Shown: in pieces, positions 3,492 through 21,136 of the stretch
Layout: the number at the start of each line of letters is the position of its first letter
Numbering within the stretch: position 1 is the first letter of the stretch
Origin: a virus
IMG/VR virus record: IMGVR_UViG_3300009187_000047
Coordinates: 1 to 34,677 of that record
Strand: one strand, 5' to 3'
DNA: 34,677 bases
The notes under the pieces: generated by a model
What the model was told of the DNA's origin: nothing
The model's database searches: none
Seen by the model: the letters and a program-made list of their open reading frames with translations, nothing else
Position numbers and translations under genes: made by a program

Positions 3492-6098
3492 ATGCCATTA
3501 CAAAAGATACTGCTTAAACCCGGTGTAAACAAGGAAAACACTCGTTATACCAATGAGGGTGGGTGGTATGACTGTGACAAAATTCGTTTCCGCCAAGGTA
3601 CGCCTGAGAAAATTGGTGGTTGGAGCCGTATCTCTTCTTACACATATGAAGGCACTTGCCGCTCATTGTGGTCATGGGCATCTCTTGCTGGAATTACGTA
3701 TGTTGGCGTTGGTACGCATTTAAAGTTTTACATTGAAGCGGCTGGGGCATATAACGACGTGACCCCCATACGTTTGTATTCGCCTGCGCTTTCTGGCCCT
3801 TTCAAAGCGTACCCCCCACAAAACTTTACAGTGACAATTGCGTCACCTGCGGTGTTGACATTTACTTCAGCCGTAACTGACGGCATGCAGGTTGTCTTAT
3901 CAACTACTGGAACACTGCCCACGGGTTTGGTGGCAGGGCAAACATACTACGTTATTGGCACATCTGGCTTAACTTGTAAGCTATCTTTAACCTATGGCGG
4001 CCAAGCAATCAATACCAGTGGTACGCAGGGCGGTACACACAGCATAACATCTAATACGGTTAACGTGACCAGCGCAAGTAACGGCTGCACCACTGGAGAT
4101 TTTGCTAACTTTTCAGGATCGTATGCGCTTAGTAGACAGACGTTTACGCGTTCGACAACAACAAACTTCATACTTACAACAGCTTTAGCAGCCAACACAC
4201 CGGTTGTGTTGTCTTCTTCTGGAACATTGCCAACAGGTTTAGTTGCTGGCGCAATGTATTACATCAACGTTGTTTCTGGCACTACAGTCACTTTTGCGCT
4301 ATCTCCAAACGGAGCACCTGTTGTAACTTCAAGTGCTGGGTCAGGCACATTTTCGCTGTATGTAAACAGCGGGATGACGGCGGATATTTTGAACACATCT
4401 TATCCAGTAGTTGTAACAGGCGTAAATAACTACCTCATATACACAGCTGTTACTGCCGGAACCTATGACACAGGTAACGGCGGTAATGTGAATGCTGCGT
4501 ATCAAATCCCTGTTGGCGCAGAAACAGCACAACCTATTACAGGATGGGGCGCTGGTGGTTGGGGCAAAGGCGCTTGGGGTTCAGGTCAATCGGGCACAAG
4601 AAAACTACGGCTCTGGTATCAAAACAACTTTGGACAGGATTTGATATACGGCTATCGTGGTGGCCCGTTGTACTACTGGAACGCTGCAATTGGCGTAACG
4701 CCCTCTCAGTTCACCGTAACAATTGCCACAAGCACATTTATTTTAGTTAGCGGCACACTTGTGGTTGGAACAGCCGTTGTGTTGACATCCACAGGAACTT
4801 TACCAACAGGCTTAACTATCGGCACTACTTATTTTGCAACCAGCATTTCTGGAAGCACTTTTAAACTTGCCACCACATATGCTAACGCAATAGCAGCCAT
4901 TCCTACGATAATTACGCTTTCTGGGACGCAGTCTGGAACACATTACCTTGCGCCAAACGGAATACCTGTAAGTGCTCTTGGCGGCGCATCCAATGTGCCA
5001 ACCTACGCTAATTTTGTAATGGTGTCAGATGCCAGCCGTTTCACCATTGCCTTTGGGTGTTCGGTTTACGGAGCAACAGATCCAACGATAGATCCAATGT
5101 TGATCCGGTGGACAGATCAGGAATCTGTGGTTAATTGGACTCCGGCAGTTACCAACCAAGCGGGTTATTTGCGTCTGTCTCATGGTTCTCAAATCTTGAC
5201 GGCTGTGCAAACGCGCCAAGAGATTGTTGTTTTTACAGATACATCACTTTATTCACTTCAGTACCTTGGCCCACCCTATGTCTGGGGTACTCAGCTTCTT
5301 GGAGATAACGTATCTATTGCGGGGTATAACACTGCCATCATTGCGTCTGGCATTGTTTACTGGATGGGCGTAGACAAGTTTTATAAATATGACGGTCGAG
5401 TTTCCACGCTACGCTGTGACTTGCGCCAGTTCATTTACAGCGATATCAACCTTGACCAACAGGCGCAGTTCTTTGCCGGAACAAACGAAGGCTTTAATGA
5501 GGTTTGGTGGTTTTACTGTACCGCTGATTCAGCAGTGCTTGATCGTTACGTTGTGTATAACTACGTGGAAGATGTGTGGTACTACGGCTCAATGGGCAGG
5601 ACTGCATGGCTGGATTTTGGGCTGACTAACTACCCGCTTGCCGCCACGTACAGCTACAACTTGGTCTACCATGAATACGGTATTGACGACAACACCACCA
5701 GCACAACGCTACCAATTGAAGCATACATCACCTCATCGCAGTACGACATTGGGGATGGACACAACTTTGGGTTTGTCTGGCGTATCGTGCCTGACCTTAC
5801 CTTCCGTGGGTCGTCTACTACAGGGGAGACTCCGCAAGTCACAATGTACTTACTGCCGCTTCAGAACTCAGGTTCTGGTTACAACGATCCAGTTGAATCA
5901 GGTAATCAGTCTGTTGGCGGTGTTAGCTACGCTAACGTAGACCGTGTCGGTACATACACAGTGGATCAGTTCACAGGGCAGATCTACACAAGGGTTCGTG
6001 GTCGTCAAATGTCGCTGAAGATTTTATCCAACCAAATTGGTACGACATGGCAGCTTGGCGCTCCCCGCATTGACATCAGACCAGACGGAAGACGCTGA
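3492..6098 (+). CDS. Large tail hub / nozzle-like virion protein with three internal repeats
   Basis: This 868-residue protein begins 'MPLQKILLKPGVNKENTRY' and continues with an aromatic- and Gly-rich N-terminus, a pattern I associate with podovirus tail-hub proteins. The later part (about 500-868) is full of W/Y-rich beta strands (WTDQESVVNW, FYKYDGRVSTLRCDLRQF, WWFYCTADS), which suggests a beta-propeller like that of P22 gp10 or T7 gp12. Into this body are set three related modules of 73-80 residues (112-185, 218-290, 407-486), each with a '(T/S)GTLPTGL' core. It starts two bases after the endolysin stop, with no clear ribosome binding site beyond GGGTTAAAA, and ends in a TGATG overlap with the next gene. 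A virion role is likely; the precise position in the tail is inferred. Confidence 0.65.
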   Translation: MPLQKILLKPGVNKENTRYTNEGGWYDCDKIRFRQGTPEKIGGWSRISSYTYEGTCRSLWSWASLAGITYVGVGTHLKFYIEAAGAYNDVTPIRLYSPALSGPFKAYPPQNFTVTIASPAVLTFTSAVTDGMQVVLSTTGTLPTGLVAGQTYYVIGTSGLTCKLSLTYGGQAINTSGTQGGTHSITSNTVNVTSASNGCTTGDFANFSGSYALSRQTFTRSTTTNFILTTALAANTPVVLSSSGTLPTGLVAGAMYYINVVSGTTVTFALSPNGAPVVTSSAGSGTFSLYVNSGMTADILNTSYPVVVTGVNNYLIYTAVTAGTYDTGNGGNVNAAYQIPVGAETAQPITGWGAGGWGKGAWGSGQSGTRKLRLWYQNNFGQDLIYGYRGGPLYYWNAAIGVTPSQFTVTIATSTFILVSGTLVVGTAVVLTSTGTLPTGLTIGTTYFATSISGSTFKLATTYANAIAAIPTIITLSGTQSGTHYLAPNGIPVSALGGASNVPTYANFVMVSDASRFTIAFGCSVYGATDPTIDPMLIRWTDQESVVNWTPAVTNQAGYLRLSHGSQILTAVQTRQEIVVFTDTSLYSLQYLGPPYVWGTQLLGDNVSIAGYNTAIIASGIVYWMGVDKFYKYDGRVSTLRCDLRQFIYSDINLDQQAQFFAGTNEGFNEVWWFYCTADSAVLDRYVVYNYVEDVWYYGSMGRTAWLDFGLTNYPLAATYSYNLVYHEYGIDDNTTSTTLPIEAYITSSQYDIGDGHNFGFVWRIVPDLTFRGSSTTGETPQVTMYLLPLQNSGSGYNDPVESGNQSVGGVSYANVDRVGTYTVDQFTGQIYTRVRGRQMSLKILSNQIGTTWQLGAPRIDIRPDGRR
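3825..4949 (+). repeat. Three diverged intragenic modules (3825-4046, 4143-4361, 4710-4949)
   Basis: Within the nozzle-like gene, three segments encode related modules of 74, 73 and 80 residues. All begin with an F-T strand and share V-V-L-(S/T)-x-(T/S)-G-T-L-P-T-G-L, then G-x-x-Y-(Y/F), then a S-G strand with K-L or F-A-L, and end near G-T-x-x-(I/Y). Modules 1 and 3 also share 'FTVTIA' and a G-T-Q-x-G-T-H ending. The similarity is at protein level; the DNA has diverged. They look like Ig-like or beta-sandwich decorations duplicated within the gene. Confidence 0.8.
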
Positions 6099-6787: not shown

Positions 6788-7891
6788 ATGTCTGGATTTG
6801 AACCTCTTTTACTTGAAGCTGGTGCTGCTGAAGTAGGTACTACTGCGCTTGCTTCTGAAGTACTGGCTCCTGAATTACTGGCTCCTGAATTACTTGGCAC
6901 TTTAGGTTCTGAGTTTGGTACAGAAGCTGCTTTTTCCGGCCTTGGCAGTTTGGGCGGTATGGAAGGTTTGACTGGGCTTACTGGATTGACAGGTGAAGGG
7001 CTTGGTTCGTTGGCCGGAACTGCACAAAGCGCCGTACCTACGTTGGCTGAAAATTTGGCAACAGCGGCTCCAGAAGCTTTGGCGCAAACGCAACAAGCCG
7101 TTTTATCAGCGCAACCCGGCGCAACTCAGCTTGCGCAACCAATGACCGAAGCGCAATACAACTTTTTGCATAACACTGTGGCCGATGTTAGTGGTACGGT
7201 TATGCCACCCGCAGGAGAGATTGCATCCAATGTGCAAGCAGGCTCGGCCATCGACGCGCCATATCAACTGACCCAAACACCAACACCCAATCTACCATCG
7301 GCCATGACAATGGAAGGCGCAGGAACAACTGCACCCACAACCGGCGGTTTAAGTAATCTTTTTAATATGATTAAAGGGGCTGCTGGCAAATTCTCAGATC
7401 TGCCTGTAGAAAAACAAGCACTTTACGGCGGCGCTGGTTTGCTTGGTGCAAACGCACTTTTTGGTAAAAAACAAGGCGTTCCAGCCGCAGAAAAATACTC
7501 TGGCCCTCTGAGCAAGTTCCATTACAACCCATCTTCTTACACGCCCTACGTAGCGCAGCCTCCAGCAAACCCATATCGTCCTGTATATACAAGCTATGCG
7601 CACGGCGGTTTGGCTGATCTGGGCGGTTACTCTGATGGTGGGCGCATGCTCAAAGGCCCCGGAGATGGTATGTCTGACGATATTCCTGCGACAATAGCTA
7701 ATAAACAACCTGCACGTTTGGCCAACGAAGAATTTGTAGTTCCTGCCGACGTGGTTTCCCACCTCGGTAATGGCTCGTCTGAAGCAGGTGCCAAACAGTT
7801 GTACAAGATGATGGACAGAGTTCGTCAAGCACGAACAGGCAACAAGAAACAAGGCAAGCAGATCAAAGCAGATAAGTACATGCCCGTATGA
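6788..7891 (+). CDS. Ejection-type internal virion protein, Ala/Gly/Leu-rich
   Basis: This 367-residue protein begins at ATG 6788 after GCGAGGTAATT. The N-terminal half is low-complexity Ala, Gly, Leu and Glu with small repeats (LAPELLAPELL; GLTGLTGLTG). The C-terminal part has 'GGLADLGGYSDGG', then 'GPGDGMSDDIPA', then 'ANEEFVVPADVVSHLGNGS' and 'LYKMMDRVRQAR'. I know this string as a common signature of internal or ejected virion proteins in environmental podoviruses and in tail-associated proteins. It ends in an ATGA overlap with the GNAT-like gene. Function is inferred as part of the DNA-ejection apparatus. Confidence 0.6.
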   Translation: MSGFEPLLLEAGAAEVGTTALASEVLAPELLAPELLGTLGSEFGTEAAFSGLGSLGGMEGLTGLTGLTGEGLGSLAGTAQSAVPTLAENLATAAPEALAQTQQAVLSAQPGATQLAQPMTEAQYNFLHNTVADVSGTVMPPAGEIASNVQAGSAIDAPYQLTQTPTPNLPSAMTMEGAGTTAPTTGGLSNLFNMIKGAAGKFSDLPVEKQALYGGAGLLGANALFGKKQGVPAAEKYSGPLSKFHYNPSSYTPYVAQPPANPYRPVYTSYAHGGLADLGGYSDGGRMLKGPGDGMSDDIPATIANKQPARLANEEFVVPADVVSHLGNGSSEAGAKQLYKMMDRVRQARTGNKKQGKQIKADKYMPV

Positions 7892-8295
7892 TTGTTCAAC
7901 ACGTCCCCGTTGAGTATGTAGCGCAGACTTGGCCGTTGGTGGAGTCGTATATAGCTTCGGCTGAAAAGTTTGGGGGCGGGGACTACAACACAGACCAGAT
8001 AAAAGTTTATTTGGCAAAGAACTTGTGGACATTGTTGGTAGCAGTGGACGAGAACAATAAAATCCAAGGCGCGGCAACCGTGACTTTTCAGAACTACCCA
8101 AACGATAGGATAGCGTTTATTACTACGATGGGTGGGAACTTGATTACCAGTGACGACATGATGGAGAAACTGAAAGCCGTCCTAAAAGGTTTTGGCGCTA
8201 CCAAGATCCAAGGCGCTGTGCGACCCGCTATGGCAAGGTTTGCAAAGAAATTTGACTTCGTAGAACGCTATGCAATAGTAGAGGTGAAGATATGA
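7888..8295 (+). CDS. GNAT-like acetyltransferase-fold protein
   Basis: The product is 135 residues. The order of elements fits a GNAT fold: an N-terminal 'VPVEYVAQTWPLVESYI' helix, a helix 'NTDQIKVYLAKNL', strands 'WTLLVAVDENNKIQGAATV' and 'DRIAFITTMGG', a helix 'MMEKLKAVLKGFGATKIQGAV', and a final 'FAKKFDFVERYAIVEVKI' strand-helix-strand. The classical acetyl-CoA-binding Q/R-x-x-G-x-G/A loop is not convincing, so activity is uncertain. It overlaps the genes on both sides by ATGA, tightly embedding it among ejection-protein genes. Similar small proteins recur in this position in environmental phages as I recall them. It may modify a virion or host protein, or be a structural relic of the fold. 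Confidence 0.5.
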   Translation: MIVQHVPVEYVAQTWPLVESYIASAEKFGGGDYNTDQIKVYLAKNLWTLLVAVDENNKIQGAATVTFQNYPNDRIAFITTMGGNLITSDDMMEKLKAVLKGFGATKIQGAVRPAMARFAKKFDFVERYAIVEVKI

Positions 8296-9257
8296 AAACG
8301 CAATACTCACGCCGCGAGCTTTATGCTTTGGGTGAATTCCTTGGCGAAAGTGTCACACGCAAAGAAGGCGGTCGCGTAATCTATGGCGGAGGCGGAAGCG
8401 ACGGCGGATCACCCGCACCAACACAAAATACAACGTACTCAACAAATATTCCTGAGTATGCACAGCCGTATGTAGAGACTATGTTGGGCACTGCCCAGCA
8501 GCAAATATATAACTACAACGACCAAGGCGAACCTACGACTATGAAGCCGTACACGCCGTATAGCCAAGACCCAAATGCTTATATAGCAGGGTTTTCACCT
8601 ATGCAGCAAAACGCTATGCAGTCTGCGCAGGGTATGCAAGCAGGGCCACAAGGGTTTCAACAAGATGTTGGCGCATACATGTCGCCATTTATCCAGCAAG
8701 CACTGCAACCTCAGTTGCGTGAAGCAGCGCGGAGTTCTGACATTCAAGGTCAACAACAGCAAGCACAGGCAACACAAGCTGGGGCATTTGGTGGTGGACG
8801 CGACGCAATCATGCGTGCGGAACGTGAGCGCAACCTTGGCCAACTGCAAGGCGACATCGTGTCGCAAGGTATGCAAAACGCATTTAACAGCGCCCAGAAC
8901 CAGTACAACACGGGGTTTGGCCAACAGACAGGCTTGATTGGTTTACAAAATCAACTGGGCGGTCAACAGCAACAGCTTGAACAGTCAAAGATTAACCAGC
9001 AGATTCAGAACTATGCTACGCAGCAGCAGTACCCGATGATGCAGTTGGCCAACATGAATAACTTACTGCGCGGCTTGCCAATGCAGTCCACCACAGTTCA
9101 AGGATACCAAGCGGCTCCCAACCCTCTGACACAGCTTGGCGGTTTGGGTTTGACCACGGCGGGTATTGCTGGAAAGCTGGGCGCTGCAAAAGGTGGTCAA
9201 GTAAAAGAAAAACGCCCAGCAGGTTTGGCTGAGTTGGCACTGATGAAAATGCAGTAA
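8292..9257 (+). CDS. Gln-rich ejection-type internal virion protein
   Basis: The protein is 321 residues. It starts with a short charged segment and 'KEGGRVIYGGGGSDGG'. A central section follows with 'YMSPFIQQALQPQLREAAR', then 'QAQATQAGAFGGGRDAIMRAERERNLG', and then long Gln/Asn-rich helices. The A-T-Q-A-G-A-F-G-G-x-R element is one I recognise from internal virion proteins of marine and freshwater phages. There is no signal peptide or membrane segment apart from a weak Gly/Ala/Leu-rich patch (about 280-300). The C-terminus 'AAKGGQVKEKRPAGLAEL' has the GG-x-V element shared with its neighbours. It overlaps the GNAT-like gene by ATGA. Its role is probably as a component of the ejected channel. 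Confidence 0.6.
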   Translation: MKTQYSRRELYALGEFLGESVTRKEGGRVIYGGGGSDGGSPAPTQNTTYSTNIPEYAQPYVETMLGTAQQQIYNYNDQGEPTTMKPYTPYSQDPNAYIAGFSPMQQNAMQSAQGMQAGPQGFQQDVGAYMSPFIQQALQPQLREAARSSDIQGQQQQAQATQAGAFGGGRDAIMRAERERNLGQLQGDIVSQGMQNAFNSAQNQYNTGFGQQTGLIGLQNQLGGQQQQLEQSKINQQIQNYATQQQYPMMQLANMNNLLRGLPMQSTTVQGYQAAPNPLTQLGGLGLTTAGIAGKLGAAKGGQVKEKRPAGLAELALMKMQ

Positions 9258-9266
9258 GGAATATCC

Positions 9267-11294
9267 ATGATTAACGTCAACCAGATCACATCGGAACTGG
9301 CCAAGATGCCAGACCACGCATTGCAACAATATGCTGCAATGCACAAAAACGATCCTTATACCGTGACATTGGCTTTGTCCGAAGCTAACCGCCGCAAGCA
9401 AATGCGCATGGGTGCTCAGGGTGCTGGCGCTATGCCGCAGCCTAAAGTGGTTGACCAAGATATTGCACAGATGTTTGCACCCCAACAGCAAGCATTGCCG
9501 GAAGACAGTGGTATTGGTCAGCTCCCCGCCCAAAACATGCAAGGCATGGCTGGTGGCGGTATCGTTGCGTTTGATGATGGTGGTCAAGTGCCGGGCTACG
9601 CTGAAGGTGTATTTACGGGATTAAAGAAAAAATACAAAGAACTACGAGGATACGAGTTTGAAGGTGGCCCTGAAACGTTTGAGAAAGCACTTGATGCTGA
9701 AGGTATTAAAGATCCCCGCCAACGTGCGTTTTTAAAATCCATTCACGATAAAGAATCAAACCAAGCACTCAAAGCACCTACCCGTAAAGATTCGGGCGCA
9801 TCTGGCCCTATGCAAGTAACTGAAGGTGCGTGGAAAGATGTTTCCAAAAAAGGCGATGAATTAAAAGACCGCAATGATCCGTATGACAACATGCGTGCCG
9901 GTATTCGCTACGCTTCTACTGGTTGGGAAAAATCAGGGGGCGACCCTGCGTTGGCAAGCACTTACTATTATGGTGGGCCGAATGGTTTTAATAAAGCCAA
10001 AAAAGGTCAAAGCGTAGCAGCACTTGAAGACATGGGGCAAACAACACTGCAGTATGGTAGCGATGTAGCAAACCGTATGAAAAGTTTTTTGCCTAAAAAT
10101 GTTATGCCCGGAAAAGCTGTTGAAGCAGGCTTGCCTACATTGGACGAGCAAAAGCGCCAAGCGTTGTTAAACCAAATTCCCGGTCAAACAGCTAAAGCGC
10201 CAACATACAAAGATGAAAACACTTACTTTGGTGGGTTAGCTGACAGATTGGAAATCCCCCAAGAAGTTCAACGCAATATCTCCAACACACTGAACGCAAC
10301 AAGCGGGTTTACTGCACCTATTGGCGGCGTTAACCGTGCGGCTGCAACTGTTTCCAAAGGGCTTGAGCCTACGGCAGAGATGATTCAAAAAGCCGAACAA
10401 GCTGCGCAAGTTGCCTCCACACCGCGACTATTGCCGCCAGCTAAAGCCGGGCTAGAAGCGCTTGATGAAACGTCTGCGGCTACCCGCGCTGCTGCTGAAA
10501 ATGCAAGGCGGATGCGACAACTTGAAGAAGATCGCAAAGCCGCAGTGGGCGCTCAACAGTCTGTTGAAGCCGCTACTAAAACAACCAATATTGCTGACAA
10601 GACAGCCAAAGAAATTGCTGCCGCCCAAGATGCTGCCATATTAAATCAATCTAAAATGACCGGTGCTGCTCAAGGTCTGGCAGGTATGCAAGCCATAGAT
10701 AAAACAGGTGGTATTCCTAACTTAACTGCCAATCAAGTAGCTGCTTTGACACCTAACGACAGAATAAGCGAAAGTGTTTTTGATCCAACTTACGGCGGCA
10801 CTTTACCGGTAGAAGCTACCAAAACAGCAGGGTTAGAAAATTTGTTGCCAAAAGCTGAAGCTCCTAAAAAGGGCGGCATAGATTTTAACGATCTCATGAT
10901 TAAGATGGGATTGAATTTGATGGCCAGCAAAGACCCCAACGCTATTTCTGGTGTTGGTCAAGCAGGTTTGGGTACGTTGGGAATGATGCAAGCGGAAGAA
11001 AAAGCCAAGTCCGAAGCTGCTTACCGCGAAGCAATGGGCAAGCACTACACTATGCCAGCTTCTGAAATTCAAACATTGGAATGGGCGCGAGACCCCAACA
11101 ACATGAAGTTGCTCAGACAGATTGCGCAAGCAAAAGCCGATCCAAAAGCAAGCGCACAAGAGGCACTGGCTTTCTTGAAAGAGGCCGGAGTGGTGCTCAA
11201 AGAAACAGATCCTGTGTTGTATAACGCCTTACGCAACAAAGTTTTAGGCGGTGCTATTCCACAAATGCAAGAAGGTGCAGGAACGCGCAGTTAA
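9267..11294 (+). CDS. Internal virion protein with SLT-type lytic transglycosylase domain
   Basis: This 675-residue protein starts at ATG 9267 after TAAGGAA. Residues 1-110 are helical and end in 'GGGIVAFDDGGQVPGYAEG'. Residues about 145-240 look like a soluble lytic transglycosylase: 'IHDKESN' gives the catalytic-type Glu E163, 'SGASGPMQVTEGAW' at 176-189 is the G-x-M-Q motif, 'DPYDNMRAGIRY' follows, and 'ALASTYYYGGP' closes the domain. The remaining two thirds are Ala/Lys/Glu/Thr-rich helices. Such enzymes, like T7 gp16, open the peptidoglycan locally while the ejection proteins enter the cell envelope. It lies 65 bases before the giant ejection gene. The domain is supported by motif order; virion location is inferred from context. 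Confidence 0.75.
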   Translation: MINVNQITSELAKMPDHALQQYAAMHKNDPYTVTLALSEANRRKQMRMGAQGAGAMPQPKVVDQDIAQMFAPQQQALPEDSGIGQLPAQNMQGMAGGGIVAFDDGGQVPGYAEGVFTGLKKKYKELRGYEFEGGPETFEKALDAEGIKDPRQRAFLKSIHDKESNQALKAPTRKDSGASGPMQVTEGAWKDVSKKGDELKDRNDPYDNMRAGIRYASTGWEKSGGDPALASTYYYGGPNGFNKAKKGQSVAALEDMGQTTLQYGSDVANRMKSFLPKNVMPGKAVEAGLPTLDEQKRQALLNQIPGQTAKAPTYKDENTYFGGLADRLEIPQEVQRNISNTLNATSGFTAPIGGVNRAAATVSKGLEPTAEMIQKAEQAAQVASTPRLLPPAKAGLEALDETSAATRAAAENARRMRQLEEDRKAAVGAQQSVEAATKTTNIADKTAKEIAAAQDAAILNQSKMTGAAQGLAGMQAIDKTGGIPNLTANQVAALTPNDRISESVFDPTYGGTLPVEATKTAGLENLLPKAEAPKKGGIDFNDLMIKMGLNLMASKDPNAISGVGQAGLGTLGMMQAEEKAKSEAAYREAMGKHYTMPASEIQTLEWARDPNNMKLLRQIAQAKADPKASAQEALAFLKEAGVVLKETDPVLYNALRNKVLGGAIPQMQEGAGTRS

Positions 11295-11359: not shown

Positions 11360-14300
11360 ATGGCACAAAGTCTCCCATTACCAGACGGCACATCGGTAAC
11401 TATCAGGGAGGGCGAAACGCCCGAAGAAACATGGGCGCGTGCTATACGGGAATACCCCGAAGCTTTTCAACCACAAAAGCCTAAAGAAGAAAAAAAAGAA
11501 CCAACAATTGGTGGGCAAGCCAAAGAGTTTTTTAAAGGCGTTGTGCCCGGCGGTGTTGGATTATTAGAAACTGCTGGTACAGGTATATCTGCGCTGTTGC
11601 CAGAAGAACAAGAACGTGCCACTCGACGTGCAATTCAAGAATATGCAACGGCAGCTAGAAAACCATTTGAAGCAACGCCCGGTTACGAAGACACAATAGG
11701 GCGTAAGTTGGGCGAAGGGGTGGGGTCATTCTTACCGCTTGTACCTTTGATGGCCGCAGGGCCTTTAGGCGTAGCTGGTGCAGGAGCTTTAAGTTTAGGC
11801 GCGGGTGCAGGTGAAGCGCGTATTGGCGCGGAACAAGCAGGTGCAACCCCAGAACAAATATCAAGAGCTACCTTATTGGGCAATATCCCCGGCGCTTTTG
11901 ATTTATTTACTCCTGCCAGAATCCTTGGCCGTGTAGCTGAACCTATTAAAGCGGGTGCTGTGGCTTTGGTTAAACGCGCCCTTGTTGCTGGTGGTGAAGA
12001 GGCGGCTCAAGAAGCGGCTCAACAAATTGCACAAAATTTAATTGCCAAAGGCGTTTATAAACCAGACCAAGAACTGTTAGCACAAGTTGGTGAATCTGCG
12101 GCCTATGGTGGCGCTGTTGGCGCTATGGTGCAAGGTTTTATGGATTTGGCTTTAGGCCGTAGGGTCAGAGGCGCTCCACCTCCCCCTCCAAAAGGCCCCG
12201 AAGCCGCTGCTGTCCCCGAGCCTACCTTGCGTGGTGAACAGCCAGAAGAAACAGCGGCGGGTACTGAAGAAGCCGCCATACTAAAAGAAGCCCTTGCGCC
12301 CAAGAAGAAGGCGGCAATGGACAAACAACTTGCCAAAGAACAACAAGAGTATCTAAAGAAATATCAGACACTGGCGGCACAGCGTGAGGCTGACCAAGCG
12401 GAACGTGAGCGCATTGCTGCGCTATCTCCAGAAGAATTTGCTGCGGAGCAGATGCAGGGTATTGGTAAACAACCCAAAGTCAAACCGGTTGACCAAGATG
12501 AACTGGCAGCATTGGGTTACCAAACCCAACTACCGTTTGTATCTGGCGAAGTTGAAAATTACACAAGGCAGCAACTGGCGCTTGCAAAAGACAGAGAAGC
12601 TGCGCCAAACATTGGTACGTATGTCTCTTACCTTATGGTTAACCCCAGTATGGCACGGCAAATTGCCATGTCTGAACAGGCTTTACCCGGTCTTTCCGTA
12701 AAACAAGGCCACAGCGTAAAGAGCACGCTGCTTACTGAATTAGAAAAGCAAGATAGAGAAACTGCTGCGGCAGCAGAAAAAGCTAAACAAGCCGGTTATG
12801 AGCGCGGTCGAACTTTGTTAGAACAGCAAGGCGCACAAACAAACCAAGATTTGCTCAGTGCAGCCAGACAAGCGCCGGGTTATCCAGCAAAAGAATGGGA
12901 ACGTGTTGAACGTGAACGGGTTGCCACAAAAGAACAAGCAGAGCAAAACCGCATTGCTAAGTTAACTCCTGAAGAATACAAAGCTGAACTCCGCCAAGTA
13001 AAACAAGAAACGTTGCCTGAAGGTGAAGAGCCTGCTTTGACGGATGAGAACGATCCGTTGATTGCTCAGTTAATGAAAACCTTGCCAACAGACCAAGGCC
13101 GCATAGTGCCGGGGCAAGTGTATGAAGGGTTGGGCGCTACCCGTGGAAAATTAAAAGATTTGCAGTTGCAGTTGGCAATTGCTCGCATGACAAGTAACAC
13201 GCTAACAGCTAAACGGTTACAGGCAGAACTGGATGACCAGCGCAAAAGTTTAAAAGAACCGATTGAGAAAACTGCAACAGGTGAAAAATCCGCAGGGCTT
13301 CCCAACATAACGCCAGAATCAGGCGCTAAACAAGTTGAAGCTGATAAGTTTGCAGATGCACAACGTTCAATTATGTTGGGGCTGGTTAAAACACTTAATA
13401 CCCGCAATCCGTTAAACCCAAGTCAGACGCGCAGAAGCGCAACGCTTAGCCTGCCCGGAGTATTTGATAAGCGTGTCAGTGATGCCAAGGAAGCGTTTGT
13501 TGAAGCGCATACCAATGAGATTGAGGCTCGCCGTGCGGTTTTTGGCTTGCCGCCTATGGCAAATTGGGAACGTGCAGAAGCACGCGCCCGTTCATTAGAA
13601 GCTTTGAATGAATTAGAAAAACGTTGGAATACTTTTGGCGCTCCTGTTGAAGCCATTCAAGTTTTGCAACAGCAAGTGCGCGACGCTACCAATGAGAATT
13701 TGCTCAATGCCGCCAAACGGTTTAATACAGAAAAGCAAGCCGAAAACAGAGAGAAGTTAACTAAACCCGGTCAAAAGTACACCAGTTACAAAGGTGAAAC
13801 TATTGAAGTGCCGCAAGAAAAAGGCCCACAAGTTGCCGCACCAAAAGAATTAAAACTCAAAGGAACTCCCCGCATCCCAACAGACGACAAAGCTGCGGCA
13901 CTTAAATTTATTGAAACAGTCCTGCGTTCTGTGGAACGCCGTATTCGTGGCGTGCCAGTTTCTGGAGAAAAAGCTCCCACACGCGTTGGCAGCATGGACG
14001 ACATTGCCAAACTGTTTGAAAAAGAAAAAACAAACGGCGCTTCTGAAAAGACTGACCCTGCTACTGTTGAGTTGCTGCACCGATTGCGTGACCACTTAGA
14101 AACTTCAACTGACCCCGAATTTATTTCTCTTGCCCGTGAGCAAGCTCAGCAAGTTATGGAGGGCAACTTACCCAACCCATTTGCTGTACGTGATTTGAAT
14201 GAAATGATGTTGGGTCGAGCAGTATCGGGGCGCAGTGCGGCTCCGCCGTTATCCGCAGAAGATACAGCCGCTGTTGTCCGTGGTGAGAAAAAGTACGAAG

Positions 14301-17300
14301 CTCAACCACAAAAAGAGTTGTTCCCTGAAGCTGGTGTTCAAGTGGTACGTGCCACACCGCAAAACTTTCAAAAGATGTTGGACTCTAAAGACATCCAAGG
14401 AATGCGGGACGTACTGACCAAACAAAAAGAAGAGAACACTGCCGCGCTTGAACTTATTAAAAAATACATTCCTTCCTTACAAAAGGAATTGCAATCCGCT
14501 ACTACGGCGCTCAACAATGCGTTGGCAAAGAAAGAAACGCTTACAAAGTCTGCCGCAGAAACTCTACAAGAACCTACATGGTATGCACCTGCTGTTCGCA
14601 AAATTGTTGAGCTTGAATCTGCTTTGCAAGCCATACCCCCGCGCCTTGAGTATTTGCGTAGTATTCAACGAGCCATCAAAGGACTTAACGCAGAAGAACG
14701 TGCTTCTTTGTTGCAGTTAACGGAAGAAGCTAAAACAACTCCCGGCATTTCTAAAAAAGATGCTGAAGAATTTAACGAAATAGTTAAGGCACTTCAATCT
14801 CCAGAAGCATTTAATGCTGAAATAAAAACACTGAATGACGCAGTTAAAAACGCTGCGGGGCTTATTGATAACGCACGCAATGCACTTGATAACTTGATGG
14901 TTAAATACCAAAAAGGTGCGGTTATGCGTGGTTCAATTGAACGCGCCGCAGACAAAGCTACTCAACAAGTTGAGCGTTTAACGGAGAAATACAACGCGCT
15001 TAAACGTCAGGTTGCACAAGAGCGGGTTGCACGAGAAGAAAAAGTTAAAGCGGAAACAACGCCCGAAGAATTGAAAGCAACGCCAAGAGCTGAATACGAA
15101 ACGGCGGCACAACGTGGCCGTGAAGGTATGGGTTTGCCCGGTGTCCGTGCTGAAAAAGACACAATGCGCATGCGTGAAAACATGCACAAAATCCGCAGTG
15201 AAATTGGTAGCCTTAACGAAGAACTAAGCAAAGCTGAGAAAAAGAACGATACAGATCGCATTGAAGAAATAGAAACAAAAATTGCTGATGCCGAAGCACG
15301 GTTGGCTTCTGTGTATCGGGATGCGCCTTTGAACGTTAAGGAACTGTTAACTCCGGAAGAAGAACTTTTACATCGACTTGCAGCCGCTGACCGCGCTGCA
15401 GCCGAAGATGCCGCTGCCGCAGCCAAAAGCAGAAAACGTAAAGGCGAAGCCGCACCCAAGTTGGTTCCAATAGAACAAACCGCTTTACTCAAAGAAGTTC
15501 GCGGTTCAAAAGTTATTCAACCATACAAAACTGCGCGGATAGCTGAAGTTGCAGAAAAAGTAACTGACCGACTTGTTAAACAAAAAACTGAGTTGGCTGA
15601 ACTCCAGCGCCGTATTGCATACCTCAAGGACAACAACAAGCATAAAGTGTCTGGGCGTTTAACTGACACGTTTAAAGACTTACAAAGTAAGGAAGCACTA
15701 CTTAAAGAAAAGCTTAAAAGCACTCAAGCTACGCAAAGAAAAGTTGTCAGCGTTGAAAAAACTGCGGAAACACTGGCAAACAAAGAAGCTCAGAAACAAG
15801 CATTAAGCCAATCTAAAGCAAGTGAAAAAGCATCTGAACGTTTTGCCCGTGGCGTGGAAGTTGAAAGCCCTGACCTGACCGCCACACAACGCCGGTCTAT
15901 TGAAAACAATGATGCTGTTGCAGCTTACGCTGACATTGCCAACGACGTTAGCGCCAGCAAAGTTAACCGCGCTGTTGCACAACGTTTGGCCGAGATGTTG
16001 GCTGGCACAAATATCCGCATTCAAGACAAGGTAGTTGATCGGGACGGCAAAGAAGTTCTTGGTTCTGCTACCAACAAACAAATTATTTTGAACCGCAATG
16101 GTGGTCTGACACAAGAAATTTTGCTGCACGAAGGCACTCACGCCGCTACTGAGCGCGTGCTTCAGATGGATGAGAGCAAGCTCACCCGCACGCAGTTGAT
16201 TGCCAAACGCGAACTCATGGCATTGCACAAGGCTATCCAGAACGATTCACGCATTACCAGCGTTAGCGCCAAAGAAAGCCTGTCTGAGTTTGCGGCTGAA
16301 GTCCTGTCCAACCGTAATTTGCAAGAGCAGTTGCGTGAAAAGAAGTGGAAGTTGTCAAATGCTTGGGCGGGGTTCAAGAGCATTGTCTTGCGTTTGTTGG
16401 GTATTGACCATCCAGAAACTATGCTGGGCGCGGCGCTCCAGTCAGTGGATGCGCTGATGGTTCCGTCTAACGTTAAGTTGGACGTGAAAGAACGTGCAGT
16501 AAATAGGCGCTTGTCACAGAAAGACATTGCCGCATTGCACGACGGTAGTAACTCCATGAAACAGTTTGCCGATCAGTTTGGTCAAGACATCAAAGTAAAA
16601 GACCGCACGCCTGAAGATGTTGAGCGTATTGCAAAAGACTATTTGTTGGACATGCTGCGCAACACTAAAAACTACGTTGCTGCGCCATATACGTTGCGCG
16701 ACTTGATGCGTAAAAATGCGGTGCTTACTAAAGAACAAGAAACGGCAATTGATAAAATTAAAGAACTTAGAAACCAGCTTGCAAAAGACGAAGCCGCATA
16801 TCGTGACGGTGAACCTTATGACGAAGACTCTGAACATTTCAAAGAAATAACAAAACAGCTTGAAAAACAACAACTCGAAATAGATGTCCTTGAAACAAAA
16901 GTGGGTTCGTTGGATTATTTATCAGATACTAGAATGTCAGACGGCAAACAGTACGATGAAAATAACCCACTTCACTATGTTGAAGCAGATGCGCAAACGT
17001 TTGCGTCTTTGAAGGCGCAAAGTGACGGTTTTCTTCGTGACAGAGAAGCTCGGGCTATTAGGGACAAACGCGAACAAGATTTAATAGGTCTTGTAGATTT
17101 GTTGTCAAGCAACCCTTCATATACCTTGGCAGAAAATGCTTTGGTGGCCAAAGCTGCTTCTAAGTTTGCAGTTGTTTCAGATAAGTCGGGGCGTTTAAAA
17201 GTAGCGTCTATTGCAAACAATAACCGCAATGGTGTTGCTGTTGTCAGTCTCGATGCTGCTGATGCAGTTATTCGGGAGCTGCGTGCTGGTAAGAATTTAA

Positions 17301-20300
17301 AAGAAGCATTCCTTGACGGCATGCAAGCCAGTGCTGACCGCGCCATAAAAGAAAACTCCCACAAAGAAGGTTGGCAAAAATTTAATCAAACTGAACGCGG
17401 AGAAACAGCACAAAGTTTAACGGCGCTTTACACGGATGAAGAAATTAACGAAGCATGGGGACAAACCGGTTATGACACTGCAGACCCCGATGAATTAGTT
17501 GAAATGCTTATTGCTGATGGGCTGCTACCTGACAGACGTGTAAAAAATACGGATTTTGAAAAAGCGGCTGTTGAACTTAACAAAGCGTGTGCAGGTACGT
17601 CTTGGTGTACTGGCAGAGATGAGAATTACGCCCGTGACCATATTGCTGGTGGAGATTTCTACGTCTACTATAAACAAGGTCGTCCAGAAGTTGCCGTGCG
17701 TATGGCTGGTAAAAATGAAATTAAAGAAGTACGCGGAAATACCCAAGACCAAGCGTTGAACAAAGAACAACAAGAAATTGCAGAAACTTTTTTAACAAAA
17801 AACAATTTTACAGATTCCGACAAATACTTGTCTCAATTTAAAATTAAACAAAAAGCCGTTGAGATTGCTAAAGGCAATGCTGAATTTACGCCAGAAGATT
17901 TAATTAACAGCGGCATTGTGCGTTTTAACAAAGTGAATGTTGCCGCTTTGTTGGACTTTAATCTTATTGACGGTTACGGAGGGCTTCGTGGAAGTCCTAC
18001 AGAAGAAGTTAAAAAGTTTTTTGAAAACAAAATTACAAAAGTTATTGAAGACGCATATGCAGATGGCCATTTTATTGGGGCAAGGCTTACTGTTGATGAG
18101 AACGGTGTTAGTGCCATAAAATTAAACGGCACAGAATACACCCCTAAATTGGATGAAGTTAAAACTGCAAAATCAGTAAGTTTTTCTGGCGTTGCAGAAA
18201 CAGTTGAACTACCAAACTTAAAAAATGTTGAAGCCTTAAGTGTTCATGGAAGTGATTTTTACAAACTTGATGTACGTTTACCAAAAGTTACGCACCTTCA
18301 ATTTATAAAAGCTTTTGGTGAAGGTGTTGACAACTCAACTATAACGCTTGCCCCAAATGCAATTGTTGATCTTGTTTCTGGTATTACGCGTGATTCTCAC
18401 ATAACAATTAAAAATGCTACTGTTGTTAAAGATGTTGAATCCCCACATGACCAAAAACTGTATCTCAAACTGCCTGACACCAAGTATGTGCCTTTGGACG
18501 ATGCAGAAGGCAGGTTTGTTATCTACGCTCCCAACCATGTTGCTGACAAACCGCCAATTGAAGAAATGGTTGAGCGCGATGCTGAAGAACCGCGCTATGC
18601 TCGTGCGCAAGCCAAAGGATTTGAAGACGAACTGAACGTGGCCAGCCAAGTAATTGCCAAGCCTAAAACTGTTGGTCAACAAATCAAAGCAAACCTTGGT
18701 TTGGGATTCCGTACACAGTACTTGGACAGACTAGCACCGCTGCACCAAGTGGCCAAGGATATGCTGGAGCCGTTGAAGGGTATGCAGATGATGCACTACC
18801 TGTTGGCTTCTGACCAGCGCATGTCCTACGTTCAGCAAGCAGTTGGCAACGGCGTTCCACAACGTGTCGCATATAAGCGCCCTGATGGTCGCACTGAATA
18901 CATTGTTGAAAGCGTGGGCGGCGCTAACTTGGCCAACGTGGTACGCACACTGGCCAAAGCCCCGGGCATGAACGGCGAAGCTGCTAACCAGTTGTTTACG
19001 CTGTATTTGCTTGGCAAACGTGCTGATCGTGTAGGTTACGACAAACTTAATTTTAGTGTCGATGCAAATTTAATTAAACAATCTGTGCGTAACATTGAAA
19101 GCAACGACAAGTTGCGTGATGTGTTTGAAGAAGCGCGTACTGAATACAACAAGTACAACAAAGACTTGATGCACTTCCTGAAAGACACAGGCGTGCTGCC
19201 ACCCAGCGTGGCCGATGAGCTTGCCGCTACTAACGATTACATACCCTACTACCGCGAGCAAAACGGCAATGCCGAGTTGGTGATCGGCAAAGAAGGTGTG
19301 TACCGTATTGGTAACCTTGCAGACCAGCCTCAGTTGCGTGAGTTGATTGGCGGCGAAGACAAGATTCTTGACTTTGCTACAAGCTCTGTTCAAAACACCT
19401 CCATGATTATGGATGTGGGCTTGCGTAACTTGGCTGCAAAAAACGCTATGTTTGAATTGGTTGGCTTGGATTTAGCGCACTTCTTGGGTAAAGATACAGC
19501 AGCGCCAAATGTTGTCAGGTTTAAAGACAAGGGCGAGGAAAAGTTTGTTCGTGTTGATACTGATGCCGTGGGTATCCCCGCTGACTTACTGGTCAAGGGC
19601 ATGGAAGGTATCCCGGTCAGCACTAATGCGCTGGTAAAGGTAATGGGTTTTGCCTCTGGCGTTGTACGCAAGGGTGTTATGTTGAATCCTCTGTACCCAG
19701 TCAAGCAAATATTACGTGACTCTGTTGCTGCCCCGTTATTGGCTGGCGCTGACTTTGCTGGCCCTTTGGGTGCGCTTAGGGCTTTGGGTAACAGTGCAAC
19801 CAAACAAAAACTGGAAGCACGCGCTATTACCGGTGGCCAAGTCTATACAGGCACAAACGAGGACTTGTCTCGCATCCTCAAGGACTTGATGGGTGGGCGC
19901 ATGGGGCTGTCCCAGTTTGTGGCCAAGGCCGAAGCTATTGCAATGGAGGCAGATGCGGCGACCCGTCGGGCACAGTATGACTCATACATTCGCCAAGGTT
20001 TGTCGCAGATGGAAGCCACTGTCATGGCGCTGGAGTCTATGAACTTTAACAAGCGCGGGTTGTCTCCTTCCATGCACTTAGCGGCTACGATGATTCCGTT
20101 CTTTAATTCTCAGTTGCAGAGCTTGGATGTGTTGTGGAGAGCAGCTAGCGGCCAACTACCAATGAGTCAACGTCTGGATATTCAAGGCAAATTATTGCGC
20201 CGGGGTTCTTTGGTTATGGCAACAGCCGTTGCCTACGCCCTGATGATGCAGGACGACGACGCGTACAAGAACGCACGCCCTGATGAAAAGTATGGCAACT

Positions 20301-21136
20301 TCTTTATCCGCATCCCCGGATTGGACGAGCCTATTAGATTCCCTGTGCCGTTTGAAATTGGTTATATTCTCAAAGGTATTCCAGAAGCAATTGTCAACAC
20401 TATGGTATCCAAGCACGGCGGCGAAGAAGCAATGGAAGCGTTTAAACATATTGCCATTCAAACAATACCCGGCGGTTCATCCATGCTGATGCCTGCGCTG
20501 GTTAAACCCATGATTGAAAACGCTACAAATTACTCGTTCTTTGGCCAGCGTGAGCTTGAAACACAACGCGAACAAAAACTACTGCCACAACAACGTTTCC
20601 GCGACAACACATCTGAGTTGGCCAAAGAACTTGGTGCAATGGCTGGCTATTCCCCAATCAAGATTGACAACCTGATCCGTGGGTACACAGGCACGATGGG
20701 CTTGGCAGCAGCTCAAGCGGTGAGCTTTGCAATGCCTGAGAAACTGGGGCCACAAGAAGCCACCAAGCGTCTGTCCGACACACCTGTGATCGGCTCCATG
20801 TTCCAGCCCAACGATGCTGGCGGCATTATCAACGCAACCTACGACCGCATGGAACACATCATGGAAGTCAAGCGTACATACGACGACATGATTAAGAAAG
20901 GTGAGACAGCCGAAGCCAGAGCGTTCTTACAAGAGAACGTGAATGAGATAGCTTCTGCGTCTGTTGCGGGAAATGCCAGAACACAACTGACAAAAATAAC
21001 GCAAGCTATGAATGCCGTTAAAGCGTCCAACATGTCGCCAGACGAGAAGCGAGCTACGCTTGACCGACTGCAAAAGATACGGATAAAGATTGCAGATACT
21101 ATGCGGGGGGTGCTCGATAAAACAGCACCCCAATAA
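11360..21136 (+). CDS. Giant polyvalent ejection protein with HExxH peptidase motif and WCT/leucine-rich region
   Basis: This 3258-residue protein occupies over a quarter of the window. The N-terminus (LPLPDGTSVTIREGETPEE, residues 4-22) is a small phage motif. Hydrophobic Ala/Gly stretches (about 116-170 and 195-265) could contact membrane and are followed by a Pro-run linker near 271-280. Residues about 300-1500 are mostly Lys/Glu/Ala coiled coil. 'LLHEGTHAATERVL' puts a zinc-peptidase HExxH at 1590-1594. 'GTSWCTG' (T2080-G2085) marks a conserved-looking domain ending near 2140, and a leucine-rich-like beta segment lies at about 2255-2375. The C-terminal ~850 residues are helical. They include 'MNFNKRG' (from 2894) and 'PFFNSQLQSLD', which recall LPD38-like domains of polyvalent proteins. 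I infer ejection into the host with several delivered activities. Confidence 0.75.
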   Translation: MAQSLPLPDGTSVTIREGETPEETWARAIREYPEAFQPQKPKEEKKEPTIGGQAKEFFKGVVPGGVGLLETAGTGISALLPEEQERATRRAIQEYATAARKPFEATPGYEDTIGRKLGEGVGSFLPLVPLMAAGPLGVAGAGALSLGAGAGEARIGAEQAGATPEQISRATLLGNIPGAFDLFTPARILGRVAEPIKAGAVALVKRALVAGGEEAAQEAAQQIAQNLIAKGVYKPDQELLAQVGESAAYGGAVGAMVQGFMDLALGRRVRGAPPPPPKGPEAAAVPEPTLRGEQPEETAAGTEEAAILKEALAPKKKAAMDKQLAKEQQEYLKKYQTLAAQREADQAERERIAALSPEEFAAEQMQGIGKQPKVKPVDQDELAALGYQTQLPFVSGEVENYTRQQLALAKDREAAPNIGTYVSYLMVNPSMARQIAMSEQALPGLSVKQGHSVKSTLLTELEKQDRETAAAAEKAKQAGYERGRTLLEQQGAQTNQDLLSAARQAPGYPAKEWERVERERVATKEQAEQNRIAKLTPEEYKAELRQVKQETLPEGEEPALTDENDPLIAQLMKTLPTDQGRIVPGQVYEGLGATRGKLKDLQLQLAIARMTSNTLTAKRLQAELDDQRKSLKEPIEKTATGEKSAGLPNITPESGAKQVEADKFADAQRSIMLGLVKTLNTRNPLNPSQTRRSATLSLPGVFDKRVSDAKEAFVEAHTNEIEARRAVFGLPPMANWERAEARARSLEALNELEKRWNTFGAPVEAIQVLQQQVRDATNENLLNAAKRFNTEKQAENREKLTKPGQKYTSYKGETIEVPQEKGPQVAAPKELKLKGTPRIPTDDKAAALKFIETVLRSVERRIRGVPVSGEKAPTRVGSMDDIAKLFEKEKTNGASEKTDPATVELLHRLRDHLETSTDPEFISLAREQAQQVMEGNLPNPFAVRDLNEMMLGRAVSGRSAAPPLSAEDTAAVVRGEKKYEAQPQKELFPEAGVQVVRATPQNFQKMLDSKDIQGMRDVLTKQKEENTAALELIKKYIPSLQKELQSATTALNNALAKKETLTKSAAETLQEPTWYAPAVRKIVELESALQAIPPRLEYLRSIQRAIKGLNAEERASLLQLTEEAKTTPGISKKDAEEFNEIVKALQSPEAFNAEIKTLNDAVKNAAGLIDNARNALDNLMVKYQKGAVMRGSIERAADKATQQVERLTEKYNALKRQVAQERVAREEKVKAETTPEELKATPRAEYETAAQRGREGMGLPGVRAEKDTMRMRENMHKIRSEIGSLNEELSKAEKKNDTDRIEEIETKIADAEARLASVYRDAPLNVKELLTPEEELLHRLAAADRAAAEDAAAAAKSRKRKGEAAPKLVPIEQTALLKEVRGSKVIQPYKTARIAEVAEKVTDRLVKQKTELAELQRRIAYLKDNNKHKVSGRLTDTFKDLQSKEALLKEKLKSTQATQRKVVSVEKTAETLANKEAQKQALSQSKASEKASERFARGVEVESPDLTATQRRSIENNDAVAAYADIANDVSASKVNRAVAQRLAEMLAGTNIRIQDKVVDRDGKEVLGSATNKQIILNRNGGLTQEILLHEGTHAATERVLQMDESKLTRTQLIAKRELMALHKAIQNDSRITSVSAKESLSEFAAEVLSNRNLQEQLREKKWKLSNAWAGFKSIVLRLLGIDHPETMLGAALQSVDALMVPSNVKLDVKERAVNRRLSQKDIAALHDGSNSMKQFADQFGQDIKVKDRTPEDVERIAKDYLLDMLRNTKNYVAAPYTLRDLMRKNAVLTKEQETAIDKIKELRNQLAKDEAAYRDGEPYDEDSEHFKEITKQLEKQQLEIDVLETKVGSLDYLSDTRMSDGKQYDENNPLHYVEADAQTFASLKAQSDGFLRDREARAIRDKREQDLIGLVDLLSSNPSYTLAENALVAKAASKFAVVSDKSGRLKVASIANNNRNGVAVVSLDAADAVIRELRAGKNLKEAFLDGMQASADRAIKENSHKEGWQKFNQTERGETAQSLTALYTDEEINEAWGQTGYDTADPDELVEMLIADGLLPDRRVKNTDFEKAAVELNKACAGTSWCTGRDENYARDHIAGGDFYVYYKQGRPEVAVRMAGKNEIKEVRGNTQDQALNKEQQEIAETFLTKNNFTDSDKYLSQFKIKQKAVEIAKGNAEFTPEDLINSGIVRFNKVNVAALLDFNLIDGYGGLRGSPTEEVKKFFENKITKVIEDAYADGHFIGARLTVDENGVSAIKLNGTEYTPKLDEVKTAKSVSFSGVAETVELPNLKNVEALSVHGSDFYKLDVRLPKVTHLQFIKAFGEGVDNSTITLAPNAIVDLVSGITRDSHITIKNATVVKDVESPHDQKLYLKLPDTKYVPLDDAEGRFVIYAPNHVADKPPIEEMVERDAEEPRYARAQAKGFEDELNVASQVIAKPKTVGQQIKANLGLGFRTQYLDRLAPLHQVAKDMLEPLKGMQMMHYLLASDQRMSYVQQAVGNGVPQRVAYKRPDGRTEYIVESVGGANLANVVRTLAKAPGMNGEAANQLFTLYLLGKRADRVGYDKLNFSVDANLIKQSVRNIESNDKLRDVFEEARTEYNKYNKDLMHFLKDTGVLPPSVADELAATNDYIPYYREQNGNAELVIGKEGVYRIGNLADQPQLRELIGGEDKILDFATSSVQNTSMIMDVGLRNLAAKNAMFELVGLDLAHFLGKDTAAPNVVRFKDKGEEKFVRVDTDAVGIPADLLVKGMEGIPVSTNALVKVMGFASGVVRKGVMLNPLYPVKQILRDSVAAPLLAGADFAGPLGALRALGNSATKQKLEARAITGGQVYTGTNEDLSRILKDLMGGRMGLSQFVAKAEAIAMEADAATRRAQYDSYIRQGLSQMEATVMALESMNFNKRGLSPSMHLAATMIPFFNSQLQSLDVLWRAASGQLPMSQRLDIQGKLLRRGSLVMATAVAYALMMQDDDAYKNARPDEKYGNFFIRIPGLDEPIRFPVPFEIGYILKGIPEAIVNTMVSKHGGEEAMEAFKHIAIQTIPGGSSMLMPALVKPMIENATNYSFFGQRELETQREQKLLPQQRFRDNTSELAKELGAMAGYSPIKIDNLIRGYTGTMGLAAAQAVSFAMPEKLGPQEATKRLSDTPVIGSMFQPNDAGGIINATYDRMEHIMEVKRTYDDMIKKGETAEARAFLQENVNEIASASVAGNARTQLTKITQAMNAVKASNMSPDEKRATLDRLQKIRIKIADTMRGVLDKTAPQ

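Follow-up and report, generated by a model that had tools for sequence, protein, structure and literature searches.

Architecture of the giant protein

In the window, the whole 34,677-nucleotide stretch of viral DNA analysed here, one gene encodes a giant protein in which a zincin-like metallopeptidase domain lies between a variable N-terminal half and a conserved C-terminal module (C-module) with an LPD38 domain. A zincin motif precedes the C-module in nearly all related giants, and homologues of the domain are found in virion ejection proteins with solved structures. Sequence comparison establishes the domains, the conservation of the predicted metal-site residues and the association with a transglycosylase gene. 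We tentatively favour the interpretation that the giant is an ejected protein of an ejection gene cluster, in which the C-module would serve delivery, the payload varies, and the zincin would act after ejection on the ejected proteins.

The single open reading frame starts with ATG and encodes 3,258 residues, confirming the 9.8-kb gene described in an earlier note made from the sequence. From comparison with IMG/VR relatives, the chain consists of an N-terminus rich in Ala/Gly, a long middle part that varies, the zincin, and then, towards the C-terminus, a WCT/GDFY domain with a beta-rich region (residues 1860-2390) and the C-module. The WCT/beta insert between zincin and C-module was absent from the earlier note. 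The features are as follows.

11360..21136, plus strand: giant ejection-type polyvalent protein, 3258 aa (open reading frame; full-length or near full-length IMG/VR homologues)
11360..12259, plus strand: N-terminal module, residues 1-300, rich in Ala/Gly, with a borderline peak of hydrophobicity (composition, hydropathy; conserved in several giants)
14360..15859, plus strand: residues 1001-1500, helical, partly heptad-periodic at about 1001-1200 and 1301-1500 (periodicity against shuffles)
15878..16474, plus strand: predicted zincin-like metallopeptidase domain, residues 1507-1705 (alignments, AlphaFold2 model, structural comparison, PDB profile matches)
16127..16141, plus strand: HEGTH motif, residues 1590-1594 (motif count, alignments)
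16286..16288, plus strand: E1643, predicted third metal ligand, in a downstream helix (invariant in alignments A1 and A4)
16937..17749, plus strand: conserved WCT/GDFY domain, residues 1860-2130 (alignment A5; mostly found beside the zincin)
17747..18529, plus strand: beta-rich region, residues 2130-2390 (AlphaFold2 model; weak similarity to a beta region of a tailspike)
18632..21133, plus strand: conserved C-module, residues 2425-3258 (~830 residues), proposed virion/delivery module (conservation; BcepIL02 gp70 homology)
20255..20788, plus strand: LPD38 domain (PF18857), residues 2966-3143 (Pfam)

In the hydropathy profile, the Ala/Gly-rich N-terminus shows a single peak, itself borderline, at residues 121-145 (19-residue mean 1.5-1.6). 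The Ala/Gly-rich sequence noted earlier is thus present, and its proposed membrane compatibility comes down to this one peak. Helical periodicity exceeds that of shuffled sequences mainly in the two stretches listed above and is absent from residues 201-700, where proline makes up 3-10%. About 400 residues of coiled coil are plausible; the more than 1000 claimed earlier find no support.

Polyvalent proteins are single chains from phages or mobile elements that unite at least two disparate domains, and the giant has three such parts: the zincin, the WCT/beta region and the LPD38 module, the last providing its only Pfam match above cutoff. Several enzymatic activities had been suggested for this chain. 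Only one enzymatic domain is identifiable in it, and the transglycosylase, which in the T7 gp16 family belongs to the chain itself, is encoded by a separate upstream gene. Pfam and PHROG searches across the full chain gave no match to a single-subunit RNA polymerase domain such as that of an N4-like virion RNA polymerase (vRNAP).

Polyvalent proteins with zincins and LPD38, zincin-LPD networks and a proposal of autoproteolysis are already published (Iyer et al. 2017, PMC5512222). The window giant resembles those proteins as a multidomain phage giant with a mid-chain zincin, LPD38, a late-gene context and proposed co-injection with DNA. It differs from them in that its zincin subfamily matches no Pfam model, its clade adds the WCT/beta insert, and it has no second recognisable enzyme.

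A predicted zincin-like metallopeptidase domain

The giant contains exactly one HExxH, the HEGTH motif reported earlier, where 0.025 would be expected from composition. In an alignment of 27 diverse homologues (A4), the only zero-entropy columns among 205 are H1590, E1591, H1594, E1643 and G1681; some of these sequences were retrieved with an HExxH-containing pattern, and the invariance by itself is therefore biased. The first four residues are also invariant in alignment A1, which combines sequences retrieved by the complete second half of the giant with the match from Serratia phage Parlo, and which by construction holds only sequences with HExxH, as its members were excised around one. The unbiased check of retention is a scan with the C-module alone, in which every end-complete member of the window's zincin family retains HExxH.

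An AlphaFold2 model of residues 1480-2400 has a mean pLDDT of 84, mostly 76-94 across the zincin domain. Strands, HExxH helix and glutamate helix are arranged in zincin order: three strands (1551-1555, 1568-1570 and 1574-1578) precede the HExxH helix (model positions 106-123, residues 1585-1602), and E1643 sits on a second, downstream helix (1641-1650). When Foldseek-ranked chains were compared by VIA-align, the region matched M34-type zincin catalytic domains (Z 7.3, 147 aa, 4.2 Å), as well as PPEP-3 and N4 vRNAP (Z about 6-7 for zincins). Such Z values are modest; the tool itself notes that values below 8 can arise by chance. Foldseek alone gave no significant match of the zincin model in the PDB. 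In BFVD the region matched, among others, large polyvalent proteins, internal core proteins and an N4-type virion polymerase. The possibility that the HEGTH segment is a plain, unconserved helix fails because the model places the motif within a zincin-like fold and the glutamate predicted as third ligand does not vary. The predicted fold and metal site thus support a genuine zincin-like metallopeptidase domain, as the earlier note had proposed.

The C-terminal module and the proposed ejection gene cluster

The C-module is the best-conserved part of the giant, with 46 invariant columns in 51 sequences. Its LPD38 domain scores 98.5 bits against a gathering cutoff of 27, in agreement with the LPD38-like C-terminus recognised earlier. 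A Metal_CEHH match at residues 2861-2965 fell below cutoff and was disregarded. The module is homologous to the C-terminus of the DarB-like protein BcepIL02 gp70 (HMM 1e-20; HHalign 7e-12 over ~670 columns; reversed controls negative). As in BcepIL02 gp70 and JC1 gp69, an HExxH lies upstream of the LPD38-bearing module and the giant gene closes the virion cluster; the HExxH region of BcepIL02 is at best distantly related to the window zincin. In JC1 (PMC9144972), gp69 is most similar to the Bcep22 DarB homologue, has LPD38 and was detected in CsCl-purified virions by 51 unique peptides. There, a transglycosylase-like domain, a methylase/helicase and LPD3 are fused into the one chain, whereas in the window the transglycosylase is separate and the rest are absent.

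Foldseek with the C-module model (mean pLDDT 68) gave no match with E < 0.001, and comparisons of the module with N4 vRNAP and T7 gp16 gave none. The C2 domain of N4 had been considered as a homologue after a weak vRNAP_dom_2 match in one relative (L019), and no match was found. T7 gp16 was likewise considered as a homologue, and in the two parts compared no relationship was found: its HERLH does not align, and neither zincin nor C-module has a significant HHalign or HMM match to it.

As to a possible prophage context, about 85,000 bacterial and archaeal genomes yielded only 3 weak C-module matches (contigs L179-L181), while relatives occur in more than 500 viral-contig stretches. This distribution suggests that the C-module lineage is mainly lytic.

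Upstream of the giant, the same late cluster includes the following genes.

3492..6098, plus strand: virion structural protein, 868 aa, start of the cluster (phrog_3287, E 8e-60)
8292..9257, plus strand: candidate smaller ejection protein, 321 aa (weak PHROG match to DNA ejection protein, E 0.025; conserved position)
9267..11294, plus strand: SLT transglycosylase protein, 675 aa, directly upstream of the giant (PF01464; upstream position in 52/58 loci)

The SLT domain scores 30.6 bits against a cutoff of 21.3, and the giant indeed follows a transglycosylase gene, as stated earlier; the count of 52 among 58 related loci covers only loci with more than 2 kb upstream of the giant. Within the cluster, a 135-aa gene (7888-8295) looks acetyltransferase-like by eye, with no support from Pfam, and an annotated acyltransferase occupies a similar place in Bcep22-like phages and Parlo. 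Further downstream, the gene at 25707-26111 matches a minor head protein family as well as Mu Gam-like end protection. With reading frames running off both ends, the window record looks like a fragment, and no terminase, portal or capsid gene was seen among the window genes scanned.

By homology and gene order, the window giant is very probably packed in the virion head and ejected into the host with DNA. The ejected polyvalent protein proposed earlier stands to this extent; because the evidence comes from virion-associated relatives such as JC1 gp69 and from gene order, we infer the presence of the window protein itself in virions.

The adjacent SLT gene could also suggest that the zincin works beside the transglycosylase, either by helping to breach the cell wall or by removing periplasmic proteins from around the channel, and the corresponding region of PhiM1 gp48 is annotated as wall-degrading. 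Proteins are the usual substrates of HExxH zincins of this type, which counts against a role on the wall. N4 gp50 and T7 gp16 are moreover assigned to the inner membrane or cytoplasm (PMC12633501), and we consider this role very improbable.

Pairing of the zincin with the C-terminal module

The C-module-only scan, which was not selected on HExxH, gave 62 untruncated, non-duplicate giants. All 62 have HExxH or HExxxH upstream of the C-module: 22 belong to the window zincin family, 3 have a divergent HExxH, 37 have HExxxH and none lacks a motif. These giants are related and do not represent 62 independent events, though several distinct subtypes are involved. With all sets pooled, the motif is present in 116/117 giants, and the lone exception is cut at its 5' end; as a control, shuffled 750-aa upstream stretches average 1.5/117, and the C-module itself has 0/117. 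Among named phages, 7/8 full-length giants have the motif; Bacillus phage Page has the C-module and no zincin motif, and no motif was found in the short gene of HTVC010P. Giants without HExxH had suggested that the zincin is an optional payload, an idea rejected since they carry HExxxH. Zincins of the HExxxH type in polyvalent proteins were described in 2017 (PMC5512222).

This pairing bears on the rather unlikely alternative that the zincin is an effector cutting host proteins (of defence, envelope or transcription) right after entry. Iyer et al. list this option (PMC5512222), and the variable parts of the giants hold other candidate effectors, such as InPase and LPD3 in CF418P1. The zincin subtypes differ among giants (HExxH, HExxxH), as would also be expected if they tracked host targets, and this counts against a self-directed role. 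However, a host-specific effector would not normally be paired almost constantly with a delivery module regardless of payload, and compact ejection-channel proteins, e.g. PhiM1 gp48, also contain homologous domains.

A linker motif (aromatic, S/R/A, R/T/P/K/A) lies beside the zincin in 40/116 giants and at the C-module junction in 60/116 (shuffles 14 and 11); it was picked after looking, in related sequences, and serves only as a lead. Such motifs flank both zincin and C-module in many giants, for example L132, L136 and L154, and may be processing sites.

Zincin relatives in virion and ejection proteins

Profile searches of the PDB with the zincin matched 9sfn_G, an internal virion protein (5e-14), 23sg_S, gp10 (7e-6), 8vb2_A, PhiM1 gp48 (4e-5), and 11fw_A, N4 vRNAP (1.5e-4), with HExxH and the downstream glutamate aligned in the displayed matches. 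HHalign against full N4 vRNAP gave 7.5e-5 at HELVH 2228, and reversed sequences gave nothing comparable. Like the window giant, PhiM1 gp48 (8VB2), 9SFN chain G and 23SG gp10 are virion ejection proteins with a homologous HExxH...E domain; unlike it, they have about 1,240-1,340 aa, and no C-module match was found in them. N4 gp50 (vRNAP), of about 3,500 aa, is similar in size and is also the last ejection gene, and its homologous zincin (C1) precedes a helical domain at the C-terminus; the window giant lacks its RNA polymerase, and the C-module is not detectably related to N4 C2. The nearest match of the zincin in a named phage is the DarB-like protein of Parlo (HMM 9e-20), which has two HExxH motifs and, in contrast to the window giant, no C-module match.

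In PhiM1 gp48, the zincin profile matches residues 380-513 (8vb2 chain A), which include HEAAH and, further downstream, a glutamate. This match falls inside residues Asp268-Asp528 of this tetrameric ejection protein (TEP), which its authors termed endolysin/exotransglycosidase-like, and we found no mention of a peptidase in the main text of their paper. Residues 380-513 are thus a candidate for re-annotation.

That wording, and the fact that the literature sampled reports no activity for any homologue, would fit a zincin fold kept for structure or metal binding only, with no protease activity. We regard this as quite improbable, as E1591, the general-base glutamate, shows the same invariance as the metal ligands, and structural retention alone would not need that glutamate.

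Cleavage before or during packaging, in which the zincin would cut the giant or other head proteins like a maturation protease, has a precedent in phage P1 DdrB, which has a C-terminal zincin and is processed before packaging (cited in PMC5512222). Such cleavage is less likely here because N4 vRNAP is packaged unprocessed (PMC5512222), and PhiM1 gp48, which has a homologous domain, forms part of the pre-ejection complex in the model of the virion; we give this alternative little weight. The N4 observation also counts against self-processing of the giant, as does the fact that no gp69 fragments are reported in the parts of the JC1 paper available to us (PMC9144972).

Proposed role after ejection

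In the interpretation that we favour, the giant would close a podovirus-type ejection gene cluster as its last and largest protein, taking the place that T7 gp16 or N4 gp50 occupies. Judging from its relatives, it would be packed in the virion and threaded into the host ahead of the DNA or together with it. The LPD38-bearing C-module would be the conserved virion/delivery part and the N-terminal half a flexible, variable payload, with an intact zincin between them. Our favoured guess is that after ejection the zincin cuts the ejected proteins themselves, which would release the payload, dismantle the channel, or both. Self-directed action after ejection is favoured because the zincin accompanies the delivery module whatever the payload.

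A bolder version, which we consider unlikely, makes the zincin an obligatory part of a widespread ejection architecture spanning LPD38 giants, N4-type polymerases and PhiM1-type tetrameric proteins; it would cut ejected proteins after entry at the linkers beside the zincin and C-module, releasing payload or shutting the channel. Such linker cutting, if it occurs, would explain the dismantling of a transient ejectosome, and the PhiM1 region termed endolysin-like would be a protease.

The N4 preprint (PMC12633501) raises as an open question how such ejectosomes are inactivated or taken apart once the DNA has entered. A zincin that is nearly always found with a delivery module, and has homologues in solved pre-ejection structures, is a concrete candidate for this step. 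The sequence links three literatures, on polyvalent proteins, DarB-like giants and ejectosome structures; in a limited literature search we found no statement of the near-constant pairing of zincin and C-module or of the link to the PhiM1-type solved domains.

The WCT/GDFY domain and the beta-rich region

The WCT/beta insert has no counterpart in many relatives, in which the zincin directly precedes the C-module. The WCT domain had no match in the phage collection and nothing convincing in Pfam, and BFVD gave only weak PcfJ-like structural matches. In L012, L107, L128, L131 and their relatives, a distinct domain (AEGVAGIKFFD ... YNYVDF), ART-like by eye and with no Pfam match, stands between an HExxxH zincin and the C-module. 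The WCT/beta insert itself (16937-18529 in the window) nearly always adjoins a zincin.
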